A DNA stretch of 22,061 bases from a virus: positions 1 to 22,061 of IMG/VR virus record IMGVR_UViG_3300020122_000387. The stretch is one strand, 5' to 3'. Of this stretch, positions 1,202 through 22,061 are shown piece by piece. The position numbers were made by a program, and so were the translations under genes. Positions within the stretch are counted from its first letter, which is position 1; each line of letters begins with the position of its first letter. Under the pieces are notes generated by a model. The model saw only the letters and a list, made by a program, of their open reading frames with translations, was not told where the DNA came from and did no database searches.

Positions 1202-2041
1202 TTAGTTAAATTTTATGTTTTGTAATGGTGAATTTATTTTACTGATTAAATTGTGCGAAATATGTAAATACACATTAGTCGTTTTTACATTAGAATGCCC
1301 TAAAATTTTCTGTATTAAATTAATGTCTACTCCATTTTCCACTAGATGAGTGGCTGATGTATGGCGCATTAAATGTGTATAAACTCTTTTATTGCAAATA
1401 CCGGCCTTGATTGCTAATTGTTTTACTACTTCACCAACACTGCGTTCTGAATATTGAAGCGAATCGTTTTGCCCGTTTAAAACATATTCCTTTGGTTTAT
1501 ATTCTTGATAGTATTCAGTAAGTAATTTTATTAAAATATCGTTTAATCCAACCTGTCTATCTTTATTGCCTTTCGCCTGAATAATATTTATAATCATTCT
1601 GCTGCGATCAATGTCTTTCCATTTTAAATTTAATAATTCAGATACTCGAAGCGAACACGAATAAAGCAGCGCAAGTATTACCTTGTGTTTTTTATTGGAA
1701 CAAACATTAAACATTCGTTGTATTTCATCCTGAGATAAAACTATTGGCAGTTTTTTATCTTTTTTTGAAAACGGTATTTTATCCAACTTTAAAGGCATTC
1801 CAACCGTAATTTCATAAAATGATTTTATGGCACATAATTTATGGTTCCTAGTGTTAATAGTTTCAAAAGTTAATAACCACTCTTTTATTGATTGTGTTGA
1901 AATAGATTTTGGTTCTATCTCTTTTTCAAAGTATCTTAAAAATGTCCCAACCGAACATAGGTAATTTTCCTGAGTTCTTTTACTCGGGTATTTTAACTTG
2001 CAATCAATCGAATATTTATCATGCCATTTTCGAAAGTCCAT
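1202..2041 (-). CDS. Tyrosine recombinase / phage integrase
   Basis: 279 aa, a compact XerC/D-size tyrosine recombinase. Residues 1-80 are the SAM-like core-binding domain; the catalytic domain begins near 98 (LPIVLSQDEIQRM). The full catalytic set is visible: R132 (CSLRVSELLNLKW), K157 (AKGNKDRQV), H223 and R226 (THLMRHTSATHL), H249 (LGHSN) and nucleophile Y258 (TNVYLHIS). These enzymes cut and rejoin DNA through a 3'-phosphotyrosine at attachment sites. The short arm-free N-terminus is of the type common in Bacteroidota mobile elements. It follows the HAD gene, with a 22-nt repeat just upstream of its start. Its likely job is integration or excision of this phage, or dimer resolution; the att site is not proven here. 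Confidence 0.95.
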   Translation of the reverse strand: MDFRKWHDKYSIDCKLKYPSKRTQENYLCSVGTFLRYFEKEIEPKSISTQSIKEWLLTFETINTRNHKLCAIKSFYEITVGMPLKLDKIPFSKKDKKLPIVLSQDEIQRMFNVCSNKKHKVILALLYSCSLRVSELLNLKWKDIDRSRMIINIIQAKGNKDRQVGLNDILIKLLTEYYQEYKPKEYVLNGQNDSLQYSERSVGEVVKQLAIKAGICNKRVYTHLMRHTSATHLVENGVDINLIQKILGHSNVKTTNVYLHISHNLISKINSPLQNIKFN

Positions 2042-3144: not shown

Positions 3145-3387
3145 TTAATTAACATATCCTATCTTTTTAATATATGTTATTTTAATAACTGGTTTGCTTT
3201 TACCATCATCTTTTTTCTTACTTGGGTTAATACGATTATAAATCCTTTTCATAAAGCGATCATCTTTTAATAAAAATTTTAATGGTACTTTTATTGTTAC
3301 TTCATTGTCAAATAAATAATCAAAATCTTTATATCTCACATGCCAATCAGCAGTCCATATCTCAACAGCTCTATAACCTATCTCCAT
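3145..3387 (-). CDS. Hypothetical protein
   Basis: 80 aa, not recognised. Begins MEIGYRAVEIWTADWHVRYK and has a mixed strand/helix pattern with a basic second half (MKRIYNRINPSKKKDDGKSK). No known motif is visible. Its start overlaps the end of the J-domain gene by 17 nt in another frame, so translation of the two is probably coupled. The 69 nt after it contain no gene. Confidence 0.55.
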   Translation of the reverse strand: MEIGYRAVEIWTADWHVRYKDFDYLFDNEVTIKVPLKFLLKDDRFMKRIYNRINPSKKKDDGKSKPVIKITYIKKIGYVN

Positions 3388-3988
3388 GCGATGTCACAGT
3401 TGTATAGTTCATAGATAAAAATCCAGCATTGATATTGTCTACATCATAAGCATATCCCTCAAGTACTTTTTTAGCTTTACCTAAAAATATTTTCTCTTCC
3501 TCCAATGCGAAATAATTACGTTTTAAATTTTCAATTTGATTATCAAGTATTATAAACATTGTTTTATCGGAAGTGCTTTTCAAACGCTTCTTAACTGCTT
3601 CATAACGCTCAATTTTAACATTAGTAATAGCCGAAGCTTGTTGATGTTTTAAAATAGTATCATCAGTGTATTCCTGAATCATTTCAACAATATCAATGAT
3701 GTCAACATTCTTTTCATTTTCTACAATCTGAATGAGGATAGCGTTTAAGAAACCCATGAATTGTTGCTCAAAAGGTTTTTCACTGTCCGTTGACCCTGTT
3801 TCGTCGTATTTGGCACGTTTACTGTCGCTAGATAGTATTTTATATGCTAAAGTTATTTCAGTCATTATTTCATGCGATCCGTTGTTATCTGGGTGGTGTT
3901 CTTTTGCTAATTTGTAATACGATATTTTAATCTCTTCTTTGCTTGCCGTTTTTTCGACATTTAATATTTCATAAAGGCTTTTTCTCAT
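3371..3988 (-). CDS. J-domain (DnaJ-like) protein
   Basis: 205 aa. Residues 4-63 form a J domain: YEILNVEKTASKEEIKISYY, then KLAKEHHPDNNG with the essential HPD at 32-34, then AYKILSSDSKRAKYDETG. HPD stimulates the ATPase of Hsp70 (DnaK). There is no Gly/Phe region, no zinc-finger CxxC repeats and no DnaJ C-terminal domain, so it is a type III J protein. Residues about 75-190 are predicted helical and coiled-coil-like (EEEKIFLGKAKKVLEG) and may hold a specific client. Phages use such proteins to recruit host DnaK to replication or assembly complexes. ATGA overlap with the RusA-like gene upstream. Confidence 0.85.
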   Translation of the reverse strand: MRKSLYEILNVEKTASKEEIKISYYKLAKEHHPDNNGSHEIMTEITLAYKILSSDSKRAKYDETGSTDSEKPFEQQFMGFLNAILIQIVENEKNVDIIDIVEMIQEYTDDTILKHQQASAITNVKIERYEAVKKRLKSTSDKTMFIILDNQIENLKRNYFALEEEKIFLGKAKKVLEGYAYDVDNINAGFLSMNYTTVTSHGDRL

Positions 3989-4689
3989 TCAGTAATATTT
4001 TTAACTATTATACAATAGGAATTTTTTTTCATTGTTAAGTCAGGAATAATATGAAGTCCGCGACAATATTTATTATTATCATTTTCAATTATTTTTTCCT
4101 TTTGTAGCAAATCTTCCAAGAGCTTTATTTTTGTGATTACATTCGAGGCGTCCAAACGTGAATTAAATGTTAATATTATTTCATATTTATCAAATCTAGG
4201 ATATGGTTGAATAAGAAATTTTTTAAAAAACATATGCCACTCTTCAGCAATTTTATTACGTTGTGTCCAATGTTTTGATTCGTACCATTCGTTAAGACTT
4301 AATCCTTTTCCGGCCCATTTGAAAACTAAATGATGTTCATCACTTGTAAATGATGTTTTGATTAAGGCCCCAGCAGACAATATCATTTTATTGTATTGCT
4401 CTTCCTGTAATTTTTTGTGAGGTGTTTTTTTTGGTTTCTTAGAAGACATTACTGCTATTCCTAAAGCTGCAATTAGATCATCGTGTATTTCGGTTTCACC
4501 AAACAAAACTAGATCGTTAAATTTCTCTGACATTATATTTTCAATTACAGGTTTTATCTTATCAATTTCTTTCTGTATAATTTTTTCTATCGGCTGTCCA
4601 TTAGATTTTTTTTTAAATACCCCAGGACTCACTTCTTCCATTCCTTTAGCCAATAAATCATTTTCTGTCATTCTTTCTTTCTTGGACAT
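3985..4689 (-). CDS. RusA-like Holliday junction resolvase with N-terminal extension
   Basis: 234 aa. The C-terminal half (about 120-232) has the RusA pattern: GKGLSLNEWYESKHW, a basic helix, then RLDASNVITKIKLLEDLLQ (D180, N183, D193) and ENDNNKYCRGLHI (D204), with a closing strand YCIIVK. Acidic residues at these positions bind the metal in RusA. RusA dimers cut four-way junctions, useful for resolving recombined or concatemeric phage DNA. The DLDN of typical RusA is degraded to LDASN. The first 100 residues begin with a common phage-type start (LLAKGMEEVSPGVFKKK) and are Lys-rich and otherwise unassigned. It overlaps its upstream neighbour by 32 nt and the J-domain gene by 4 nt. Confidence 0.7.
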   Translation of the reverse strand: MSKKERMTENDLLAKGMEEVSPGVFKKKSNGQPIEKIIQKEIDKIKPVIENIMSEKFNDLVLFGETEIHDDLIAALGIAVMSSKKPKKTPHKKLQEEQYNKMILSAGALIKTSFTSDEHHLVFKWAGKGLSLNEWYESKHWTQRNKIAEEWHMFFKKFLIQPYPRFDKYEIILTFNSRLDASNVITKIKLLEDLLQKEKIIENDNNKYCRGLHIIPDLTMKKNSYCIIVKNITE

Positions 4690-5035
4690 AATCAGAGATT
4701 GTTAGTTGTGTGTAATCATCAAAAAATATATTTTCTAAATCTTCTTTTACGGCTATTTTTAAATAGGCTGTAATTACTTCTTGATTATTTGTTGATAATA
4801 TTGTTCTGTGTTGTTTTCGTGTATCGTGATTTTGTAATATTTCAGTTAATAGCTGTATTGTAACAATTGGAATTTTTATTTTTTGATCTTTTTTATTTTG
4901 TTTTAGCTGCTCTATTCTTATGTTTTTCCACTTTAGTTCGTTTGCCCAACTTCTCTTGTTTTTTATCTTTTTTTGTAGATGAGTTTTCATTACCAATATC
5001 TGAACTTTGTTTGGTTTTGTTATCTCTATTAACAT
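4658..5035 (-). CDS. Hypothetical basic protein, overlapping both neighbours
   Basis: 125 aa if started at 5035, where it overlaps the HTH gene by 143 nt in the +1 frame. An internal Met at residue 16 (position 4990) still lies in the overlap. The first 55 residues are Lys/Asn-rich; the rest (PIVTIQLLTEILQNHDTRKQ, then VITAYLKIAVKEDLENIFFD) looks like a normal helical protein. There is no ATG between the end of the HTH gene (4893) and the clearly protein-like part, so translation must start in the overlap, at a non-ATG codon, or by frameshift from the upstream gene. The C-terminus overlaps the RusA-like start by 32 nt. Function unknown. Confidence 0.55.
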   Translation of the reverse strand: MLIEITKPNKVQILVMKTHLQKKIKNKRSWANELKWKNIRIEQLKQNKKDQKIKIPIVTIQLLTEILQNHDTRKQHRTILSTNNQEVITAYLKIAVKEDLENIFFDDYTQLTISDYVQERKNDRK

Positions 5036-5378
5036 GTTTGTTAAAATATTTAGTAAGATTATTTAAACATTCTTTTTCATCATAGTCAGGAAGGACAAAC
5101 GTTAATTTCTTATCTTCCAGAACAGGTTTTCCAATAAATAGATTTACCGGTATCCCATAACGAAAACAAAGCCATATAATATTCTCTTCGCTGAGAGAAC
5201 TATGAATATTACCATGATTCATATATTTCGATAATGAAGCTCCGGTAAATACCATTCCTTTCTCTTCTGCATCTTTTATCACATCTTTGGCTAAAATATT
5301 AAGTGATTTAAAGCGTTCCTTTAAAAGTGTCCTGATACGTATCGAATCCTTAATTATTGATGGTTTTATTGTTGTCAT
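4893..5378 (-). CDS. HTH-like DNA-binding protein with basic tail
   Basis: 161 aa. Residues about 14-85 read as a helical domain of the phage-regulator kind: RTLLKERFKSLNILAKDVIK, a turn, then FTGASLSKYMNHGNIHSSLS (a likely recognition-helix area), then EENIIWLCFRYGIPVNLFIG, which resembles the last helices of Xre-type domains. Residues 118-161 are Lys/Asn/Ser-rich and probably disordered, ending KVEKHKNRAAKTK. It may be a repressor or a nucleoid-type DNA binder. It lies in the middle of the recombination genes, not at a divergent promoter, which argues against its being the main repressor. Confidence 0.6.
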   Translation of the reverse strand: MTTIKPSIIKDSIRIRTLLKERFKSLNILAKDVIKDAEEKGMVFTGASLSKYMNHGNIHSSLSEENIIWLCFRYGIPVNLFIGKPVLEDKKLTFVLPDYDEKECLNNLTKYFNKHVNRDNKTKQSSDIGNENSSTKKDKKQEKLGKRTKVEKHKNRAAKTK

Positions 5379-5387
5379 TGGTTGTAT

Positions 5388-5501
5388 TTATAAATTAAAA
5401 AACATACTAATTAAAACTCCATATAAACCACCAAGCAAAAACATAATTCCCATTATGGCATATAATTGATATTTTGAAATTTTATATATTTTTTCTGTCA
5501 T
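5388..5501 (-). CDS. 37-aa single-pass membrane protein
   Basis: MTEKIYKISKYQLYAIMGIM begins the protein and a hydrophobic segment runs from about residue 12 to 36 (ending GVLISMFFNL). It has a charged N-terminus and one membrane span, with no cleavage site obvious. Its ATG shares an ATGA with the stop of the 85-aa gene upstream, so it is in a translationally coupled position. It ends 9 nt before the HTH gene start. Function unknown; small phage membrane proteins often act in exclusion, lysis control or host takeover, which cannot be told here. Confidence 0.6.
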   Translation of the reverse strand: MTEKIYKISKYQLYAIMGIMFLLGGLYGVLISMFFNL

Positions 5502-7726: not shown

Positions 7727-7755
7727 TTTGTGTGTTTTTAGTTATTAATTTTTGA

Positions 7756-7787
7756 CAAATGTAATACGGTTTGTTAAATTATGCAAA
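7756..7787 (-). promoter_or_regulatory. Bacteroidota-type promoter for the SSB and recombination genes
   Basis: On the minus strand: TTTG (7787-7784), a 20-nt spacer, TACATTTG (7763-7756, fits TAnnTTTG). A start near 7750 leaves a short leader to the ATG at 7726. The 42-nt block 7746-7787 matches 16689-16730 at 39 positions, including nearly the whole spacer, so a shared regulator is likely. The spacer holds GTTTG-N10-CAAAC. Confidence 0.8.
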
Positions 7788-7811
7788 CTTATTTTGAATT
7801 ATTTTTTAATT

Positions 7812-13891: not shown

Positions 13892-13964
13892 TTTCACTTA
13901 TTGGACTCGAACCAATGACCCCTACATTAAGCGTGTAGTGCTCTACCAACTAAGCTAAAGTGAA
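13892..13964 (-). tRNA. tRNA-Lys (anticodon CTT), atypical G33
   Basis: 73 nt. The acceptor TTCACTT/AAGTGAA is perfect; D arm GCTTAGTTGGTAGAGC; anticodon stem CTACA/TGTAG; T arm ATTGG-TTCGAGT-CCAAT; discriminator A, CCA not encoded. The anticodon loop is CGCTTAA, so anticodon CTT is preceded by G at position 33 instead of the near-universal U. It lies 2 nt after tRNA-Gln(CTG). Confidence 0.85.
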
Positions 13965-13966
13965 AG

Positions 13967-14039
13967 TTGTGCCGCAAGGAGTCGAACCTTGATTTCATCC
14001 TCCAGATGGACGCGTCCTGAGCCATTAGACGAAAGCATA
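13967..14039 (-). tRNA. tRNA-Gln (anticodon CTG), imperfect acceptor stem
   Basis: 73 nt. D arm GTCTAATGGCTCAGGAC; anticodon stem CGTCC/GGATG with loop ATCTGGA (U33, anticodon CTG); T arm CAAGG-TTCGACT-CCTTG. The acceptor TATGCTT/CGGCACA has two mismatches (A2-C71, U7-C66) and one G-U pair, so this gene may be decaying or need editing. Anticodon CTG reads CAG. Confidence 0.75.
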
Positions 14040-14041
14040 AG

Positions 14042-14114
14042 TTGTCCTGACAGGTCTCGAACCTATACTCTTCTGGACCAAAACCAGACGTGTTGCCAAT
14101 TACACCACAGGACA
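14042..14114 (-). tRNA. tRNA-Gln (anticodon TTG)
   Basis: 73 nt. Perfect acceptor TGTCCTG/CAGGACA; D arm GTGTAATTGGCAACAC; anticodon stem TCTGG/CCAGA with loop TTTTGGT (U33, anticodon TTG); T arm ATAGG-TTCGAGA-CCTGT; discriminator A, CCA not encoded. It is first in a tandem cluster with gaps of 2 nt between genes, presumably one precursor downstream of the 123-aa gene. Confidence 0.92.
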
Positions 14115-14512: not shown

Positions 14513-16624
14513 TTAAAATTTAATTTTTACTATTCGTTTGTGTGTTCCTTGTAATCGTACTATTAATTCATCTTTTACTGTTGCATTAAACCCTAATCCT
14601 GATAATTGTTTGTCGGTTGACTCAATCATATTAGTAGCTCCTAACACTTCTAATACCTTTCGGTGTTGTGCTAATTCCGGTAATAAATTCTCATTGTGAA
14701 AACTTCTTATAGAAGATGGTGACTTACATTTATCCAACATGAAGAAATAATGTTTATTACCCGTGTTGTTTATTCCCCAATGATTAGGAGATAGACAAAC
14801 TAAATTCACTTTATGAAATTTATTTGTTTCCAACCCGTAAATTTCTTTTGATGAAATTGAAGACTCAGGTAATTTATGAATTATACTGAACTGTCCATTT
14901 TTTAAAGTTACTTCTGCAATATCTATTCTTGATTTGTTTGTCATTGGTTTGTTATATTCATAAGAATATATTTCACCATTAAACTCTATCTCTGCTTTAA
15001 ATCCTTTTGATCCTCTATCACCAAATTGGTGAATAAATAAAACATATACTCCCTCAGTCATTTTACTTAAAGATGGATAGGTAATGTTTTCTACAGCTAA
15101 TTTACCATAAGGTTGTGTAATATCTATATCCAAATTTCCTAGAGTAGTGTGGCTCCTTTTATTAGAAAAATAAATCTCATTTCTATTAGGTTCAATGCAA
15201 TGCAAATCTAAATCTGAATTGTCACCATTGCCATCGGCCCACATCATAGAAAATCTTAACACTCCATCAACTTTACCTCCTTTAGATTTAACTTCTTCTT
15301 TGATTTGACTTTTGCCAGCTAAATTTCCGTTGAAGGTCCAAGAATAATCATTATTCCATTTGAATATCTGTTTTGCACTAGAAATGTTGGTCGTTGTCAA
15401 AGAAACTAAATTACCTTCATGGTTATTAGCAAGAAACGTTTCTACGGATGAACATGAGGGCAAAATATCCTTCATGAATTTGTCAATAGATATTTCTTCT
15501 ATGCCATCAAATTCATTTCTCTTATGCCTTGTTGATGTAGGTTTAACATCATCAAAAATGGAAACAGATTGAATTTTCCCTTCACCTACATTGCTATGTA
15601 ATATTTCAGAAACTTTAATATCATCAATAGTGGCAAATCGTCTGTTAAAAGACTCTGTATATCCGTTTTCCTCAACAAATGCTTTCGCTTCTTCAATTTG
15701 TTTTTTAGTGATCGGTGCGGTAACTTTCATATAGTTCGCCGGATCAACTCTTTTATTCCAAGATTGACATGCTTTATTCAATTCTTCTCCTTCAGATAAT
15801 TCAGAGCACAAAACACCGATTAATTCATTTCTAAATTTAGCAAAAGGTAATTTAAAGGATTTGACCCAGCACCAATTATTTCTTTGGTTTGCGGCTAAAT
15901 TATCATATTGTTTTTTAAGAGGTATAATTTGCTCGATTTTATATAAATGAGTAGCTCCATCCAACAAAGAACCTTGATTAATTAAATCTTTTACTAGATT
16001 TAAAGTATCAAGTGAAATTGTTTCCATCGTTCTTTGGAAAACATTTTTAGCATCTCTGTAGTTACCCATTATAGATTCAACAGAATTACCAGAAATGTCT
16101 ACAAAGATTTTATCAACAAAAACATGCAAATGGTTAAATGTTCTTACTTCATTTGGCTTTACCACTCCAAATTTTTCAGCTTCCTCTTTGGTATATCTTT
16201 TTGAATTACTAACAATCCCTAATTGGAAGATAGAGTTTGACTTGGTACAAGATTCATAAGGTAACACATTCAGCTCATTAAAAGTTTCAAAAAACACTTC
16301 TGTTATTTTTGAATTTTTAATTGTCTGAGATAATACTTTAGTAGTGTTTTCAAATTCATCATTCCCAACTATATTGAATATTGTATCAATATTGTAGTTT
16401 TCGTCAATAGATACAATATTTCCGTATCTACGAATGAAATTTTTACAATGATTACAATTATGTGAGGAACTGTTCGGATCACGAAAAATTGGGTCTTCGT
16501 CTTCGGAGAATGAATCTAAATATAGATCCCATATTTGTTGTCCGGTTAATTCCACTCTGAAAAGTTTACCTGTTTTAGACATTTCAGTAAACTTCTTCTG
16601 GATTCTTTTGTTAAATTCTTTCAT
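14513..16624 (-). CDS. Large phage protein with YfaP/DUF2135-like domain
   Basis: 703 aa, the largest gene here. The N-terminal part has TGQQIWDLYLDSF and SHNCNHCKNFIRRYGNI (Cys at 57 and 60), a start known to me from long uncharacterised phage proteins. At about 455-555 there is a beta domain of YfaP/DUF2135 type: LRFSMMWADGNGDNSDLDLH, CIEPNRNEIYFSN, LDIDITQPYG, then VYVLFIHQFGDRG and an EIEFNGEIYSYEY strand. The C-terminus (about 610-703) is a further domain with HWGINNTGNKHYFFML. It has its own promoter 75 nt upstream. The role is unknown; no enzyme motif is seen and no signal peptide. Confidence 0.75.
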   Translation of the reverse strand: MKEFNKRIQKKFTEMSKTGKLFRVELTGQQIWDLYLDSFSEDEDPIFRDPNSSSHNCNHCKNFIRRYGNIVSIDENYNIDTIFNIVGNDEFENTTKVLSQTIKNSKITEVFFETFNELNVLPYESCTKSNSIFQLGIVSNSKRYTKEEAEKFGVVKPNEVRTFNHLHVFVDKIFVDISGNSVESIMGNYRDAKNVFQRTMETISLDTLNLVKDLINQGSLLDGATHLYKIEQIIPLKKQYDNLAANQRNNWCWVKSFKLPFAKFRNELIGVLCSELSEGEELNKACQSWNKRVDPANYMKVTAPITKKQIEEAKAFVEENGYTESFNRRFATIDDIKVSEILHSNVGEGKIQSVSIFDDVKPTSTRHKRNEFDGIEEISIDKFMKDILPSCSSVETFLANNHEGNLVSLTTTNISSAKQIFKWNNDYSWTFNGNLAGKSQIKEEVKSKGGKVDGVLRFSMMWADGNGDNSDLDLHCIEPNRNEIYFSNKRSHTTLGNLDIDITQPYGKLAVENITYPSLSKMTEGVYVLFIHQFGDRGSKGFKAEIEFNGEIYSYEYNKPMTNKSRIDIAEVTLKNGQFSIIHKLPESSISSKEIYGLETNKFHKVNLVCLSPNHWGINNTGNKHYFFMLDKCKSPSSIRSFHNENLLPELAQHRKVLEVLGATNMIESTDKQLSGLGFNATVKDELIVRLQGTHKRIVKIKF

Positions 16625-16698
16625 TTTTTATTTTGTTTTTTGGTCTGACACTACTTTAGTTCGTAATCAGAGAGGTTAATATTTGTATTAATTTTTGA

Positions 16699-16730
16699 CA
16701 AAGATAATACCGTTTGTTAAATTATGCAAA
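16699..16730 (-). promoter_or_regulatory. Bacteroidota-type promoter for the 703-aa gene
   Basis: On the minus strand: TTTG (16730-16727), a 20-nt spacer, TATCTTTG (16706-16699, fits TAnnTTTG). It lies in the 122-nt gap before the ATG at 16624. It is a near copy of the promoter at 7756-7787 and shares the CATAATTTAACAAAC spacer core. Confidence 0.8.
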
Positions 16731-16746
16731 TTAAAAATGATTTATT

Positions 16747-17208
16747 TTACAATTCGTAATAAGGTGTTTTTGGTTCAACCCCAAAATCTAAATCAAGTCG
16801 TCTGTTATCATTTAACGCTTGTTTTGAGAAGAACACAACATCTTCACAAGTTTTATTAGAAAACATCCCTATATGTGTGTATTCGGGTAGCAATCCCAGC
16901 GTTTCGGACAACCATTTATAAGCTTCTGTCCTTGTCATTATATTTAGTTGCCAAATCTTATCAAAATATAGATGAGCTTGCTTTTTTGCCTCGCGTAACT
17001 TTGCATTCGCAAGCCTTCCCAAAGAATTGCTTGTGTTTTTATGCACACCACAATACGCATCGCATTTTTTACAGAGATAAATCATTCCATAACTCTTCCC
17101 ATAAATAACAGAACTGTCAACATATTCTGTTTTATTTTTACAGTAAGGACAAATTTTACCCTCAATTATAGAAAGTTGTAATTCGCTTAATTGTAGTTGT
17201 GTTATCAT
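16747..17208 (-). CDS. Zinc-ribbon protein, DUF3268-like
   Basis: 153 aa. Four cysteines, CPYC (20-23) and CKKC (46-49), form a zinc ribbon, with C53 nearby. The sequence around them (YVDSSVIYGKSYGMIYLC, then AYCGVHKNTSNSLGRLANA) and the following EAKKQAHLYFDKIW, MTRTEAYKWLSETLGL and HIGMFSNKTCEDVV match the DUF3268 pattern as I know it from phages and mobile elements. The biochemical role of the family is not known; nucleic-acid binding is plausible from the ribbon. Its ATG overlaps the stop of the 55-aa gene (ATGA). Confidence 0.8.
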   Translation of the reverse strand: MITQLQLSELQLSIIEGKICPYCKNKTEYVDSSVIYGKSYGMIYLCKKCDAYCGVHKNTSNSLGRLANAKLREAKKQAHLYFDKIWQLNIMTRTEAYKWLSETLGLLPEYTHIGMFSNKTCEDVVFFSKQALNDNRRLDLDFGVEPKTPYYEL

Positions 17209-18329: not shown

Positions 18330-18719
18330 TTAATCTTTAACTTTCTCCCACACTTTCGAAAAGTGTTTCTTTCTTTTTTGGATACCGATAAAATAAATCC
18401 CAGCTTTTAATAATGTCGGTTTATGGTCCGCAATTGGCATCACCTTATTCACATCCCAATATTCAGGAGTTAAATTTTGGTATCCGGTGTGATTTAAGGT
18501 ACACCCATCAGATCCAACAGTTATAATGTGTCCCTTTTGCTCAGGTAACTCATAAAGCTCGTAATCTCCACATAATGCATGAACGTGGCCTGATTTTTCA
18601 GACTTTGCAATGAATGTTTTTGCTATTTTCTTTGCTTCTGCTGGTAATTTAGACACACTGAATATTTCTACATCGCCTTGATGTGCTGCAAACTTTCCAT
18701 TAAAATTTTTCTTTTCCAT
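18330..18719 (-). CDS. Conserved phage protein of unknown function
   Basis: 129 aa. The pattern HQGDVEIFSVSKLPAEAKKI, then SEKSGHVHALCGDYELYELP (G-H-x-H at 44-47), recalls short phage proteins with H-G-D...L-P...G-E-x-T-G-H-x-H that often accompany the large protein at 14513-16624 and the 123-aa gene. A GHVH pair could bind metal, but no activity is known to me. The last part (GIYFIGIQKRKKHFSKVWEK) is basic. Its upstream gap is only 40 nt. Confidence 0.65.
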   Translation of the reverse strand: MEKKNFNGKFAAHQGDVEIFSVSKLPAEAKKIAKTFIAKSEKSGHVHALCGDYELYELPEQKGHIITVGSDGCTLNHTGYQNLTPEYWDVNKVMPIADHKPTLLKAGIYFIGIQKRKKHFSKVWEKVKD

Positions 18720-18759: not shown

Positions 18760-19683
18760 TTAACTACGTGAATTCCATTTGTATTCTATTTCTGTTGGCA
18801 CTTCAGAGGGTCGGTGATATTTAGCAGCGTCTACACAATTTGTAAAGCTAGAGTCTGAGGGGATCAAATAATTCTGACCAGTTGAAGCGCAAGACATTTT
18901 TAACCAAGCTAATGCTGCCGGAGATTTACCATTTAAATCTTCTTCTTCAGCAAAAAGTTCATCCGTCTTATACAGAATCATTTCCTCTATTTCTCCATTA
19001 GCATGAACAAATGATTTTTTATCAATCTCTTTAGCACCTAAAAATGTTAACATTGATCCTTCACCTTGTGCTTCTATGATTTCATACATACCACCCCTTA
19101 CATCTTCATTTTCCTCTTTAAAAAAATCCTCTTTCGTGAACTTAGTTTCAAATATTCTTTTTGGCATGTTACGTCCATTGATATAATATTGTCCATATCC
19201 ATTTTCCCATTGAATAGCTTTACCTGAAACATTATGTAATCCATTTTCATTTTTAATACATATTACCGGTTTTTCAACAATAATAATAGCTTTTTCAAAT
19301 TCAATAGTCATAAAAATATTACTATCTATGAATTTTCTTAATTCGAAATATTTAGGGAATTTTTCGGCGGTAATAATTCCCAACTCTATATATGTTTCTA
19401 CCCATGCGTACCAGCTTGCCCAATAAATGGTAAGATATGTACCAAATGAATAATATTTCTTTTCTGTTCCTTTTAATTTGTTTGCCATTTGCTGAGCTTT
19501 TAAAGGATTAGAAGCTAAATAAATGATTGGCATATCTTTTTTTATTAAAGAGTAAACAAATTTAATCACCTCTTTGGCAATAGGAATATTGATTTTGTCT
19601 TTATTTAAAAATTTTTTAATAAACTTTTCTTTATTTGTTTTTAAAAGTTTTTTTTGTTCGGGATTGAGTTTTTCGAGTTTCAT
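18760..19683 (-). CDS. DUF6745-like protein
   Basis: 307 aa. Residues about 129-179 (FEKAIIIVEKPVICIKNENG, then LHNVSGKAIQWENGYGQYYI, NGRNMPKRIFE) show the DUF6745 signature: a 'P-x-x-I...L-H-N...G-x-A-x-x-x-x-D/N-G' line followed by 'G-x-x-x-P'. The N-terminal helical half contains an aromatic stretch (YWASWYAWVETY, about 87-98). The end (KSPAALAWLKMSCASTGQNY, then LIPSDSSFTNC) fits the closing part of the family. From memory, relatives often hold a tetrapeptide-period run of the form W-x-S-V/L in the middle; here a separate S-E-V-x protein lies immediately upstream (48-nt gap). Function unknown. Confidence 0.7.
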   Translation of the reverse strand: MKLEKLNPEQKKLLKTNKEKFIKKFLNKDKINIPIAKEVIKFVYSLIKKDMPIIYLASNPLKAQQMANKLKGTEKKYYSFGTYLTIYWASWYAWVETYIELGIITAEKFPKYFELRKFIDSNIFMTIEFEKAIIIVEKPVICIKNENGLHNVSGKAIQWENGYGQYYINGRNMPKRIFETKFTKEDFFKEENEDVRGGMYEIIEAQGEGSMLTFLGAKEIDKKSFVHANGEIEEMILYKTDELFAEEEDLNGKSPAALAWLKMSCASTGQNYLIPSDSSFTNCVDAAKYHRPSEVPTEIEYKWNSRS

Positions 19684-19731: not shown

Positions 19732-20199
19732 TTATTTTTTATTTTCCTTGTCCACTTCACTGTCCACTTCACTGCTCACTTCACTGCTCACTTCACTGCT
19801 CACTTCACTTTCCACTTCCCTGCGCACTTCCCTGCGCACTTCACTGCCCACTTCTCTGTCCACTTCTCTGTCCACTTCACTGCGCACTTCCCTGCGCACT
19901 TCCCTGCCCACTTCACTGAACACTTCACTGCGTACTTCCCTGCGCACTTCACTGCTCACTTCACTGTCCACTTCACTGTACACTTCACTGCCCACTTCAC
20001 TGTCCACTTCCCTGTCCACTTCACTGAACACTTCACTGAACACTTCCCTGCCCACTTCACTGAACACTTCACTTTCCACTTCACTGAATACTTCACTGCC
20101 CACTTCACTTTCCACTTCACTTTCCACTTCACTGCGCACTTCACTGCCCACTTCACTGCTCACTAATTCGCCTATATTTATTTTAGAATTTGTTTTCAT
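19732..20199 (-). CDS. Tetrapeptide (S-E-V-x) repeat protein, complete copy
   Basis: 155 aa from the ATG at 20199; upstream in-frame codons lie in the promoter. A 14-residue head (MKTNSKINIGELVS) is followed by 34 perfect-period S/R-E-V-x units and the tail KENKK. The variable x is Gly, Arg, Glu, Phe, Asp, Ser or Tyr; S is sometimes R. No signal peptide. The Val every fourth residue could form one face of a repeat solenoid or helix, but no fold is proven. It has a promoter at 20216-20247 and is followed by the DUF6745-like gene, so the two are probably one transcript. The opposite strand is also open over the array; the shared head in the second copy shows which strand is coding. Confidence 0.75.
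   Translation of the reverse strand: MKTNSKINIGELVSSEVGSEVRSEVESEVESEVGSEVFSEVESEVFSEVGREVFSEVFSEVDREVDSEVGSEVYSEVDSEVSSEVRREVRSEVFSEVGREVRREVRSEVDREVDREVGSEVRREVRREVESEVSSEVSSEVSSEVDSEVDKENKK
19750..20157 (-). repeat. 12-bp tandem array, 34 units
   Basis: Unit AGTGAAGTG plus a variable codon (GGC, CGC, GAA, TTC, GAC, TAC or AGC); AGT is AGG in about ten units. No spacer or indel breaks the period. The array is far richer in G+C than its surroundings. Confidence 0.95.
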
Positions 20200-20201
20200 G
20201 C
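20149..20201. repeat. Left arm of a 53-bp perfect inverted repeat
   Basis: Identical, in reverse complement, to 21621-21673. It covers GC plus the first 17 codons of the repeat protein (MKTNSKINIGELVSSEV). Similarity stops abruptly upstream of GCATG, so the promoter was not duplicated. Beyond it the two arrays remain alike but differ in their variable codons. Confidence 0.95.
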
Positions 20202-20215
20202 TGTATTTTTTTTGA

Positions 20216-20247
20216 CAAATGTAAAACATTAATACATCTAATGTCAA
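20216..20247 (-). promoter_or_regulatory. Promoter for the tetrapeptide-repeat and DUF6745 genes
   Basis: On the minus strand: TTGAC (20247-20243), a 19-nt spacer, TACATTTG (20223-20216). This fits the Bacteroidota consensus. The start would fall about 10 nt upstream of the ATG at 20199, giving a very short leader. The right copy of the gene has no such element. Confidence 0.8.
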
Positions 20248-20313
20248 GTTTTTTTACACTTATTTTATTATTTATAATCATTCTAAATAGCATATACAAT
20301 ATTACATCAATCC

Positions 20314-20371
20314 ACATAGCATAAAAATTATGCGATGTGTAGCCATTAGAGCATAAAAATGATGCACTAAT
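20314..20371. repeat. Two tandem related palindromes in the divergent control region
   Basis: CACATAGCATAA-aaa-TTATGCGATGTG (20314-20340, one mismatch) and ATTAGAGCAT-aaaaatg-ATGCACTAAT (20345-20371, one mismatch). Both share the core GCATAAAAAT-N-ATGC and are centred about 31 bp (three helical turns) apart. They may be operator or origin sites. The rest of 20248-20525 holds no gene or other clear signal. Confidence 0.7.
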
Positions 20372-20525
20372 AAAAAGTGTAACTATTAAACCTGAAAAAA
20401 TATTTGAAGAACAAGTAAATTCAAGGTCCTATTAATGAATATGCGCTAATAGTAGCAACTGGTTATGTTAAGGATAGTACAAATGAACATAAATCATATT
20501 AAATGAAAATATTTTCACTTTTTTC

Positions 20526-20555
20526 TTGACTTTTATAAAATGTGTTGTATATTTG
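20526..20555 (+). promoter_or_regulatory. Promoter for the rightward 261-aa gene
   Basis: TTGAC (20526-20530), a 17-nt spacer, TATATTTG (20548-20555, fits TAnnTTTG). Transcription would begin near 20562, about 145 nt before the ATG at 20709, leaving a long structured leader. Confidence 0.8.
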
Positions 20556-20570
20556 TGCTGTTATTGCTTA

Positions 20571-20691
20571 GCGGAACTGATTAATAACAATATGAAAACA
20601 TTGAGTATTTAAAATATTGCCGAAAGGCAAGCACATAAGTCTCGACATATAGAAGTTCCGCATTTGAAAAGATTCGGGACTTTTGTGTTTT
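20571..20691 (+). promoter_or_regulatory. Structured leader with mutually exclusive helices (attenuator-like)
   Basis: GCGGAACT (20571-20578) pairs over 8 bp with AGTTCCGC (20654-20661). The same right-hand arm, as AAGTTCCG (20653-20660), also pairs over 8 bp (one G-U) with CGGGACTT (20675-20682), which runs into a U-rich stretch (TTTTGTGTTTT). Only one helix can form. Within the first sits a perfect hairpin TTGCC-GAAA-GGCAA (20617-20630) with a GNRA tetraloop. The layout is that of an antiterminator/terminator switch. A known riboswitch class is not recognised. Confidence 0.55.
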
Positions 20692-20708
20692 ATATAGGTT
20701 TCAACAAT

Positions 20709-21494
20709 ATGGTAACTAACATACAGATAATAAGACATTGTTCGGATAGAAATATCCTCAGGCAATATGCTGTATGGTTACAAATGAAACAAGTATTTAA
20801 ACATTCATGCTTTTATAATGGTAATATATCTCATATCATAAAAACAACCGGCCTCTCCCGCAATACGGTAAAAAAATATATTAACTTTTATATTGAGAAT
20901 GGTTGGGCTAGGGAGCATGGAAATAACATTACACTCATATCACAACATAAATTAAAGAAGCTATTAAAAATTACATTAATGAGAAACATAAATATTTCTC
21001 ACCTTGATCATTCTTCAACATCAAAAACAATTACATTATTAAATTACCTTTTATTTAAATTCAAGCACGATCAGTTTCAGTACTTGAGGGAAATGTCATC
21101 CGATCTAATCAATCCTAATGGGTCAAAAGCATTACAACGTCATAAAGCAGCCGTTCGCTTCTTTAAGGAAAGTAATTCCAAGCCTATCTTAGATGAAAGT
21201 GATGACACTTATAACCCTTCAGTATTTACCATTGCACGAACTATTAATAAAAGTATTGCTTCAGCATCCAGGTTAACAAAAAATCTCGCTGATTTAAAAC
21301 TAATTACTGTTAAGGAGAACAAAAAAGTTGTATCTCCTGAGCGTAAAAGCAGATCGCGATTTAATCATGGTACTACTACTAAACATCAAACATTCAGAAA
21401 GTCTATTCCTTTCTCAAGAATAGACCAACAAAGTGTTAGAATATTTAATCAGTCATTTATAATTCAATACCGAAACTGCTATGTTTTCAATTAA
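20709..21494 (+). CDS. Protein with two helix-turn-helix segments; regulator or initiator
   Basis: 261 aa from the ATG at 20709; a TTG at 20664 would add 15 residues, but it lies in the structured leader. Residues about 40-72 (ISHIIKTTGLSRNTVKKYIN, then a wing-like FYIENGWAREHGNNITLI) form a winged helix. A second likely HTH is at about 170-203 (PSVFTIARTINKSIASASRL, then TKNLADLKLITVKEN). The C-terminal 50 residues are basic (ERKSRSRFNHGTTTKHQTFR). It is the only rightward gene and stands opposite the main leftward block, with palindromes and a leader upstream, so a regulatory or replication-initiator role is likely but not proven. Confidence 0.7.
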   Translation: MVTNIQIIRHCSDRNILRQYAVWLQMKQVFKHSCFYNGNISHIIKTTGLSRNTVKKYINFYIENGWAREHGNNITLISQHKLKKLLKITLMRNINISHLDHSSTSKTITLLNYLLFKFKHDQFQYLREMSSDLINPNGSKALQRHKAAVRFFKESNSKPILDESDDTYNPSVFTIARTINKSIASASRLTKNLADLKLITVKENKKVVSPERKSRSRFNHGTTTKHQTFRKSIPFSRIDQQSVRIFNQSFIIQYRNCYVFN

Positions 21495-21620
21495 TACAGA
21501 ACATACTGTCAAAAAGTGTAAACCTCTTCAATCCTTGAATTATTCCTACGTGTATGTGTGTATGCGGGATACCATTAGATGCTAAAAAAAAAATAAACTT
21601 TTAATTTAAAAAATAAAAAA

Positions 21621-21673
21621 GCATGAAAACAAATTCTAAAATAAATATAGGCGAATTAGTGAGCAGTGAAGTG
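21621..21673. repeat. Right arm of the 53-bp perfect inverted repeat
   Basis: Mirror of 20149-20201. Upstream is an A-rich stretch without a TAnnTTTG promoter, so this copy would depend on read-through from the 261-aa gene or be silent. The 128 nt between that gene and this arm show no terminator hairpin. Confidence 0.95.
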
Positions 21674-22061
21674 CGCAGTGAAGTGCGCAGTGAAGTGCGC
21701 AGTGAAGTGGAAAGTGAAGTGGAAAGTGAAGTGCGCAGTGAAGTGGGCAGGGAAGTGGGCAGTGAAGTGGAAAGTGAAGTGCGCAGTGAAGTGGGCAGTG
21801 AAGTGCGCAGTGAAGTGGAAAGTGAAGTGTTCAGTGAAGTGGGCAGTGAAGTGGGCAGTGAAGTGCGCAGTGAAGTGTTCAGTGAAGTGGGCAGTGAAGT
21901 GTTCAGTGAAGTGTTCAGTGAAGTGGGCAGTGAAGTGGGCAGTGAAGTGCGCAGGGAAGTGGGCAGTGAAGTGGAAAGTGAAGTGCGCAGTGAAGTGGGC
22001 AGTGAAGTGCGCAGTGAAGTGGAAAGTGAAGTGTTCAGTGAAGTGGGCAGTGAAGTGGGCA
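21623..22061 (+). CDS. Tetrapeptide (S-E-V-x) repeat protein, second copy (runs off the window)
   Basis: At least 146 codons; the 3' end is outside. The head is identical to the copy at 19732-20199. Thirty-three complete units are visible, using only four variable codons: CGC, GAA, GGC and TTC (R, E, G, F). Asp, Tyr and Ser units of the first copy are absent, and R-E-V occurs only twice. No own promoter is seen. It may be a donor (silent) cassette, a second expressed allele or an assembly consequence of the repeat. Confidence 0.7.
   Translation, partial: MKTNSKINIGELVSSEVRSEVRSEVRSEVESEVESEVRSEVGREVGSEVESEVRSEVGSEVRSEVESEVFSEVGSEVGSEVRSEVFSEVGSEVFSEVFSEVGSEVGSEVRREVGSEVESEVRSEVGSEVRSEVESEVFSEVGSEVG
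21665..22061 (+). repeat. 12-bp tandem array, at least 33 units, second copy
   Basis: Same unit and phase as 19750-20157 on the other strand, with a narrower codon set. The window ends inside a unit, so the true length is unknown. Confidence 0.95.

Follow-up and report, generated by a model that had tools for sequence, protein, structure and literature searches.

Free-standing tetrapeptide-array genes in a phage fragment as a possible split-off, diversifying partner of a DUF6745-type protein

Two genes that begin identically, point away from each other and continue into short coding repeats raise the question of whether such a pair forms a switchable cassette or has another explanation. The pair analysed here lies in the IMG/VR virus record IMGVR_UViG_3300020122_000387, whose whole length of 22,061 bp is referred to as the window; the record is metagenome-derived and probably a fragment. 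The preliminary description had proposed a variable-repeat cassette with an expressed left and a silent right copy, exchanged by inversion of the middle segment or by gene conversion between the arrays, and had suggested comparing the arrays with those of related phages. The features of the locus are collected in Table 1.

Table 1. Positions of the paired array genes and of their neighbouring features in the window
Feature	Positions	Strand	Description
Conserved partner gene	18330..18719	(-)	Motifs HQGD and SGHxH; 40 nt after the DUF6745-type gene
DUF6745-type gene without internal tetrapeptide array	18760..19683	(-)	48 nt after the left array gene, same strand
Left free-standing tetrapeptide-array gene	19732..20199	(-)	13-aa leader MKTNSKINIGELV, 34 x[S/R]EV units, DKENKK, stop
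Left array proper	19753-20160	(-)	34 units x-[S/R]-E-V
Leader copy, 54 bp	20149..20202	(-)	Identical, inverted, to 21620-21673
Promoter-like site, left array gene	20216..20247	(-)	Bacteroidota-type, TTG-N21-TACATTTG, 16 nt before ATG
Promoter-like site before HTH gene	20526..20555	(+)	TTGACT ... TATATTTG, TTG...TAnnTTTG-like
HTH protein gene	20709..21494	(+)	HTH_36 match; weak similarity to phage replication-initiation proteins
Leader copy, 54 bp	21620..21673	(+)	Identical, inverted, to 20149-20202
Right free-standing tetrapeptide-array gene	21623..22061	(+)	Leader as in left gene; cut by contig end
Right array proper	from 21662	(+)	At least 33 full x-[S/R]-E-V units, open at contig end

The layout given in the preliminary description holds. 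The array genes point outward from a segment of 1423 bp between the two ATGs (20200-21622) that contains the HTH gene, and each start runs into a 12-bp array in a fixed frame. The identity of the two starts is likewise real, although it extends over 54 bp rather than 53, comprising 3 bp before the ATG and 51 bp from the ATG onward. The leader MKTNSKINIGELVSSEV is common to both oppositely oriented genes, and the DNA upstream of it is unrelated between them. TRF reported both arrays as tandem 12-mers with scores of 483 and 563, far above chance, and the gene pair as a whole forms an inverted repeat of 453 nt with 86% complementarity. Because the contig stops inside the right array, in a 111-nt exact repeat (the last 111 nt of the window repeat 21747-21857 of the same array), the length of this array is a lower bound: the units listed are a minimum and the true end lies beyond the contig.

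A unit of the two window arrays consists of NNC or GAA, followed by AGT (or AGG/AGA), GAA and GTG. Across the 67 regular units of both arrays, the GAA framework codon is invariant and the sole change of the GTG codon is to GTA, which occurs twice. The first codon is GGC, CGC, AGC, GAC, TAC, TTC or GAA, the variable residues of both arrays being G, R, E, D, F, S and Y. In the order of their units, the left and right arrays resemble each other no more than shuffled arrays do, with a longest common run of 3 units, and there is thus no sign of the gene conversion proposed earlier. The right array contains an internal 8-unit repeat, a length reached in none of 2000 shuffles; it is part of the 111-nt match at the contig end and may be real or an effect of assembly. 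Since the unit orders are fully reshuffled, yet the 54-bp leader is unaltered, the arrays have turned over fast; their turnover was complete while the leader stayed unchanged, unless the leader was homogenised. The term variable-repeat genes is therefore apt, the unit orders being reshuffled and the variation focused on one codon per unit. The pattern differs from that of a diversity-generating retroelement, in that the adenines of the unit framework do not vary and reverse transcriptase is absent among the ORFs examined in the 22,061-bp fragment. Structure prediction returned a helix of low confidence for the array (pLDDT 40-55), a model that indicates no binding surface.

A fixed open frame does not in itself argue for coding, because 12-mer arrays like these lack stop codons in several frames. 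We grew the borders of 20 arrays by DNA identity alone and counted the fewest base changes that separate their unit variants. These arrays held 143 nonsynonymous and 21 synonymous changes, as compared with 37.8 synonymous changes expected (p about 7e-4), counts that represent minimum events and are not fully independent. Nearly half of the changes (78 of 164) affected base 1 or base 2 of codon 1; base 3 of this codon hardly varies, if at all, within most arrays. An earlier version of the count with protein-defined array borders agrees (86 to 9).

The left array gene is followed on the same strand by the DUF6745-type gene and then by the partner gene. The DUF6745-type protein is 48% and 57% identical to proteins of two viral loci, L072 and L083, respectively, and both homologues match DUF6745 (PF20530) above the Pfam cut-off. 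The window protein itself had no Pfam match, even at E 10, and no match in the phage collection. The partner gene adjoins DUF6745 in 25 of 26 viral loci, just as it does in the window. No PDB relative was found for the DUF6745 model, a full-text literature search returned no paper naming DUF6745, and a scan of a defence library matched nothing meaningful.

We collected viral relatives with the DUF6745-type protein of the window. Nearly all of them carry an internal tetrapeptide array of the x-[DANSG]-[NQTS]-[VIL] kind (xDNI, xNTL, xSQL, xDQV and others), located between SPxxxQ...N-like and GWVAFYDYF-like segments, at the position where the window protein has the short joint ANKLKGTEKKYYSFGTY. 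Two relatives, L107 and L139, also have an array-less DUF6745 gene with a short joint as in the window; a free array gene with xTEV or xNQV units, respectively, lies directly downstream of it. In L140, an array-less DUF6745 gene of a different type and the partner gene are followed by five consecutive small array genes (4418-5421), most of which start with M(x)LGKP or similar and continue into a degenerate x-[DN]-S-[VI] array. Judged from their sequences, these genes may constitute a multigene array family parallel to the shared-leader pair of the window. Weaker cases with short array ORFs are L138, L150 and L153/L154.

All free-standing array genes that we found lie close to array-less DUF6745 genes, namely in the window and the loci just named, and none was detected in 15 fused loci. 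Fisher's exact test on this difference gave 0.042 when restricted to the four strong cases and 0.0007 when the weak ones were included, rough figures given that only four cases are strong, the loci are related and hence not independent, the detector was written after examples had been seen and some contigs are truncated. When the free-array label is mapped on a C-terminal-domain tree, a minimum of three changes is required, and the rows nearest to the window are L139, with a free array, and L109, with a fused one. The array is not always needed, because several array-less loci (L142, L145, L147, L151, L157 and Microcystis phage LMM01) lack a free array in the sequence available. DUF6745 proteins of sibling Microcystis phages, as well as those from actinobacterial genomes, also have no tetrapeptide array.

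A DNA pattern for SEV-like units succeeded where tblastn with the array protein as query found no relatives, probably because low-complexity filtering had removed the query. Most matches to the pattern were unrelated WEVR/TEV low-complexity ORFs, and the eight matches to the exact array pattern in GTDB genomes were short and unrelated. We also rejected L121 as a candidate inverted array, since its repeat is of the usual in-frame type, and TGA apparently serves as a sense codon in it. The DUF6745-array gene of that locus (L121:4428-5640) contains many in-frame TGA codons, also at the variable position of the array, so that TGA probably specifies an amino acid in this phage.

Our main result, beyond the question of a switch, is that the arrays are linked to DUF6745 and that fused and free forms of them are repeatedly split among loci. 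These findings also bear on the simplest account of the pair, a recent duplication in which both copies are expressed and undergo ordinary repeat instability without any function as partners of DUF6745. Such an event would explain why the leader is identical at all synonymous sites while the upstream DNA is unrelated. However, free arrays recur with array-less DUF6745 genes and are missing from fused loci, and we consider duplication of this kind unlikely.

On balance, we favour as the somewhat more probable reading that the SEVx genes are a split-off, duplicated and diversifying tetrapeptide-repeat partner of the DUF6745-type protein. The SEVx proteins would then be functionally tied to the neighbouring DUF6745-type gene and the conserved partner gene. 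The array, which resides inside DUF6745 in most relatives, would have become a separate gene here and then been duplicated, with the second copy placed divergently behind the HTH gene. Each 12-bp unit, if translated, would provide a fixed S-E-V framework and one displayed, changeable residue. Array length and unit order could change by recombination or slippage between units that keep the framework identical, and selection for diversity at the displayed residue would retain first- and second-base variants of its codon. These data best support a mechanism in which the coding repeat undergoes concerted evolution while diversity is maintained at the one residue displayed. On this reading, the array protein would most probably act as a repeat of variable length and variable surface that meets a changing target in the host or in a competitor, in trans with DUF6745.

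The alternative of an invertible cassette depends on the segment between the arrays. Recombination at the identical leaders or arrays would invert the 1.4-kb segment and swap the promoter, or convert one array. Inverted identical sequence around a promoter-containing segment is indeed the arrangement of the invertible promoters of Bacteroidota. The window resembles them in that a perfect inverted identity of 54 bp flanks a segment holding a promoter-like site, and inversion would move the left promoter to the right copy. The window differs from them in that its inverted sequence is coding, no invertase lies adjacent and no evidence of inversion was found. A tyrosine recombinase gene is present in the window (1202-2041), but it lies at a distance of 18 kb and resembles a typical phage integrase.

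As for the promoters, the preliminary description was right that the left copy has a promoter-like site and that the right copy has none of its own. The left site has the form TTG-N21-TAnnTTTG, a pattern that occurs 2 times in the window where 0.73 would be expected, and thus statistically weak. To call the right copy silent is nevertheless unjustified, because it follows the HTH gene in tandem, 128 bp behind it on the same strand, and the HTH gene has its own promoter-like site, which could serve the right array gene too. The HTH assignment itself is a narrow one (25.8 bits for HTH_36 against the Pfam cut-off of 25), and tblastn of the protein against viral contigs and phages found no relatives. 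Between its promoter-like site and the HTH gene, the plus strand (20556-20710) can form a long hairpin (-40.8 kcal/mol, z -4.65 against shuffles); Rfam gave no match approaching a gathering score for this stretch, a possible small RNA or structured leader.

The comparison with related phages did not favour the cassette: the inverted pair was seen in no relative, the arrays being usually fused within DUF6745, and the array paralogues with a shared leader in L140 are direct tandem genes, which need no inversion. Together with unit orders that share no more than shuffles do, these observations leave the expressed/silent cassette without positive support, and we regard a switch as improbable.

Still less probable is an assembly artefact, in which the second copy was produced by the assembler or by merging of strains. 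The metagenomic origin of the fragment and the contig end within a 111-nt exact repeat would allow it, as would the ends of other contigs of the DUF6745-array family within arrays. On the other hand, neither the order nor the composition of the units agrees between the two arrays, their upstream sequences are unrelated and the exact identity of the leaders spans just 54 bp. Contigs ending inside an array include L083, L072, L113, L114 and L119 in addition to the window, and genes of this type are therefore probably under-represented or truncated in metagenome collections. Least probable of all is that the arrays act as DNA, iteron-like or as binding arrays with an incidental frame, since their position around a DNA-binding protein gene and their several open frames are outweighed by variation that respects the SEVx frame (bases 1-2 of codon 1, few synonymous changes), a conserved leader with an ATG and a like repeat fused in frame inside the DUF6745 proteins of relatives.

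Among known systems, the reading of a split-off, diversifying partner finds its closest parallels in coding repeats of other phages. The DUF6745 (PF20530) phage proteins with an internal array share the x-[small]-[polar]-[V/I/L] unit and the variation at codon 1, but the window has two copies of the array, both outside the DUF6745-type protein. Gp54 of mycobacteriophage Tweety likewise contains a 12-bp unit coding for a repeat of four amino acids, and the repeat number differs between phages. The third base of its codons is frozen while first and second bases vary, which has been read as selection for variation (PMC2884959); counted in the same way as our arrays, the gp54 gene has 8 nonsynonymous and 0 synonymous changes. 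Unlike the window arrays, each of which is its own gene, duplicated and inverted, the gp54 array has the repeat AA-x-x and lies between unique N- and C-terminal domains of one gene. Gp54 has no DUF6745 match by Pfam, and no sequence homology to DUF6745 or to the array proteins was found. It belongs to phrog_3416, whereas the window array genes fall outside this family and match other PHROGs only, through the repeat. Another short repeat in a phage gene is VR2 of bbp36 in Bordetella phage BMP-1, a 24-bp unit whose number varies between isolates, as cited in PMC2884959; the likeness is one of description only.

Several other features of the fragment deserve mention. The protein encoded at 14513-16624 on the minus strand is a large PHROG 1735 protein, found in hundreds of large phages. 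Its nearest relatives are in the 462-kb uncultured phage LR756500 (67%), followed by Cellulophaga phages (53-54%), and the presence of the latter among the nearest relatives suggests a Bacteroidota host. The minus strand also encodes GroES-like (775-1188) and DnaJ-like (3371-3988) proteins, and Rfam identified three adjacent tRNA genes (13892-14114, minus strand) between a helicase gene and a small gene. A 69-nt repeat at 7743-7811 and 16686-16754, with 84% identity, bears matching promoter-like sites on the minus strand and is apparently a repeated promoter.

Tweety gp54 is the one studied phage protein of such a repeat kind that we found, and its repeat number tunes counter-defence. Because mutants that have gained or lost gp54 repeats overcome prophage defence (PMC9262239, PMC8549241), a role in host interaction is the best available analogy for the arrays described here; by this analogy, a counter-defence role of the array protein is conceivable, if unlikely. 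More generally, and tentatively, the arrays may belong to a phage-wide system in which a string of short repeat units, with one free residue in every four amino acids, is rapidly re-written by recombination of its units under diversifying selection. The string would be supplied to a DUF6745 partner, whether as a fused part or as several copies acting in trans, as a re-tunable repertoire for binding or counter-defence. DUF6745 phage proteins are widespread yet unstudied. In the split loci, where array and DUF6745 are encoded apart, the role of each part can be tested directly. If the DUF6745-linked arrays of large phages act as that of gp54 does, they would represent an overlooked class of self-diversifying proteins that can be recognised from sequence.
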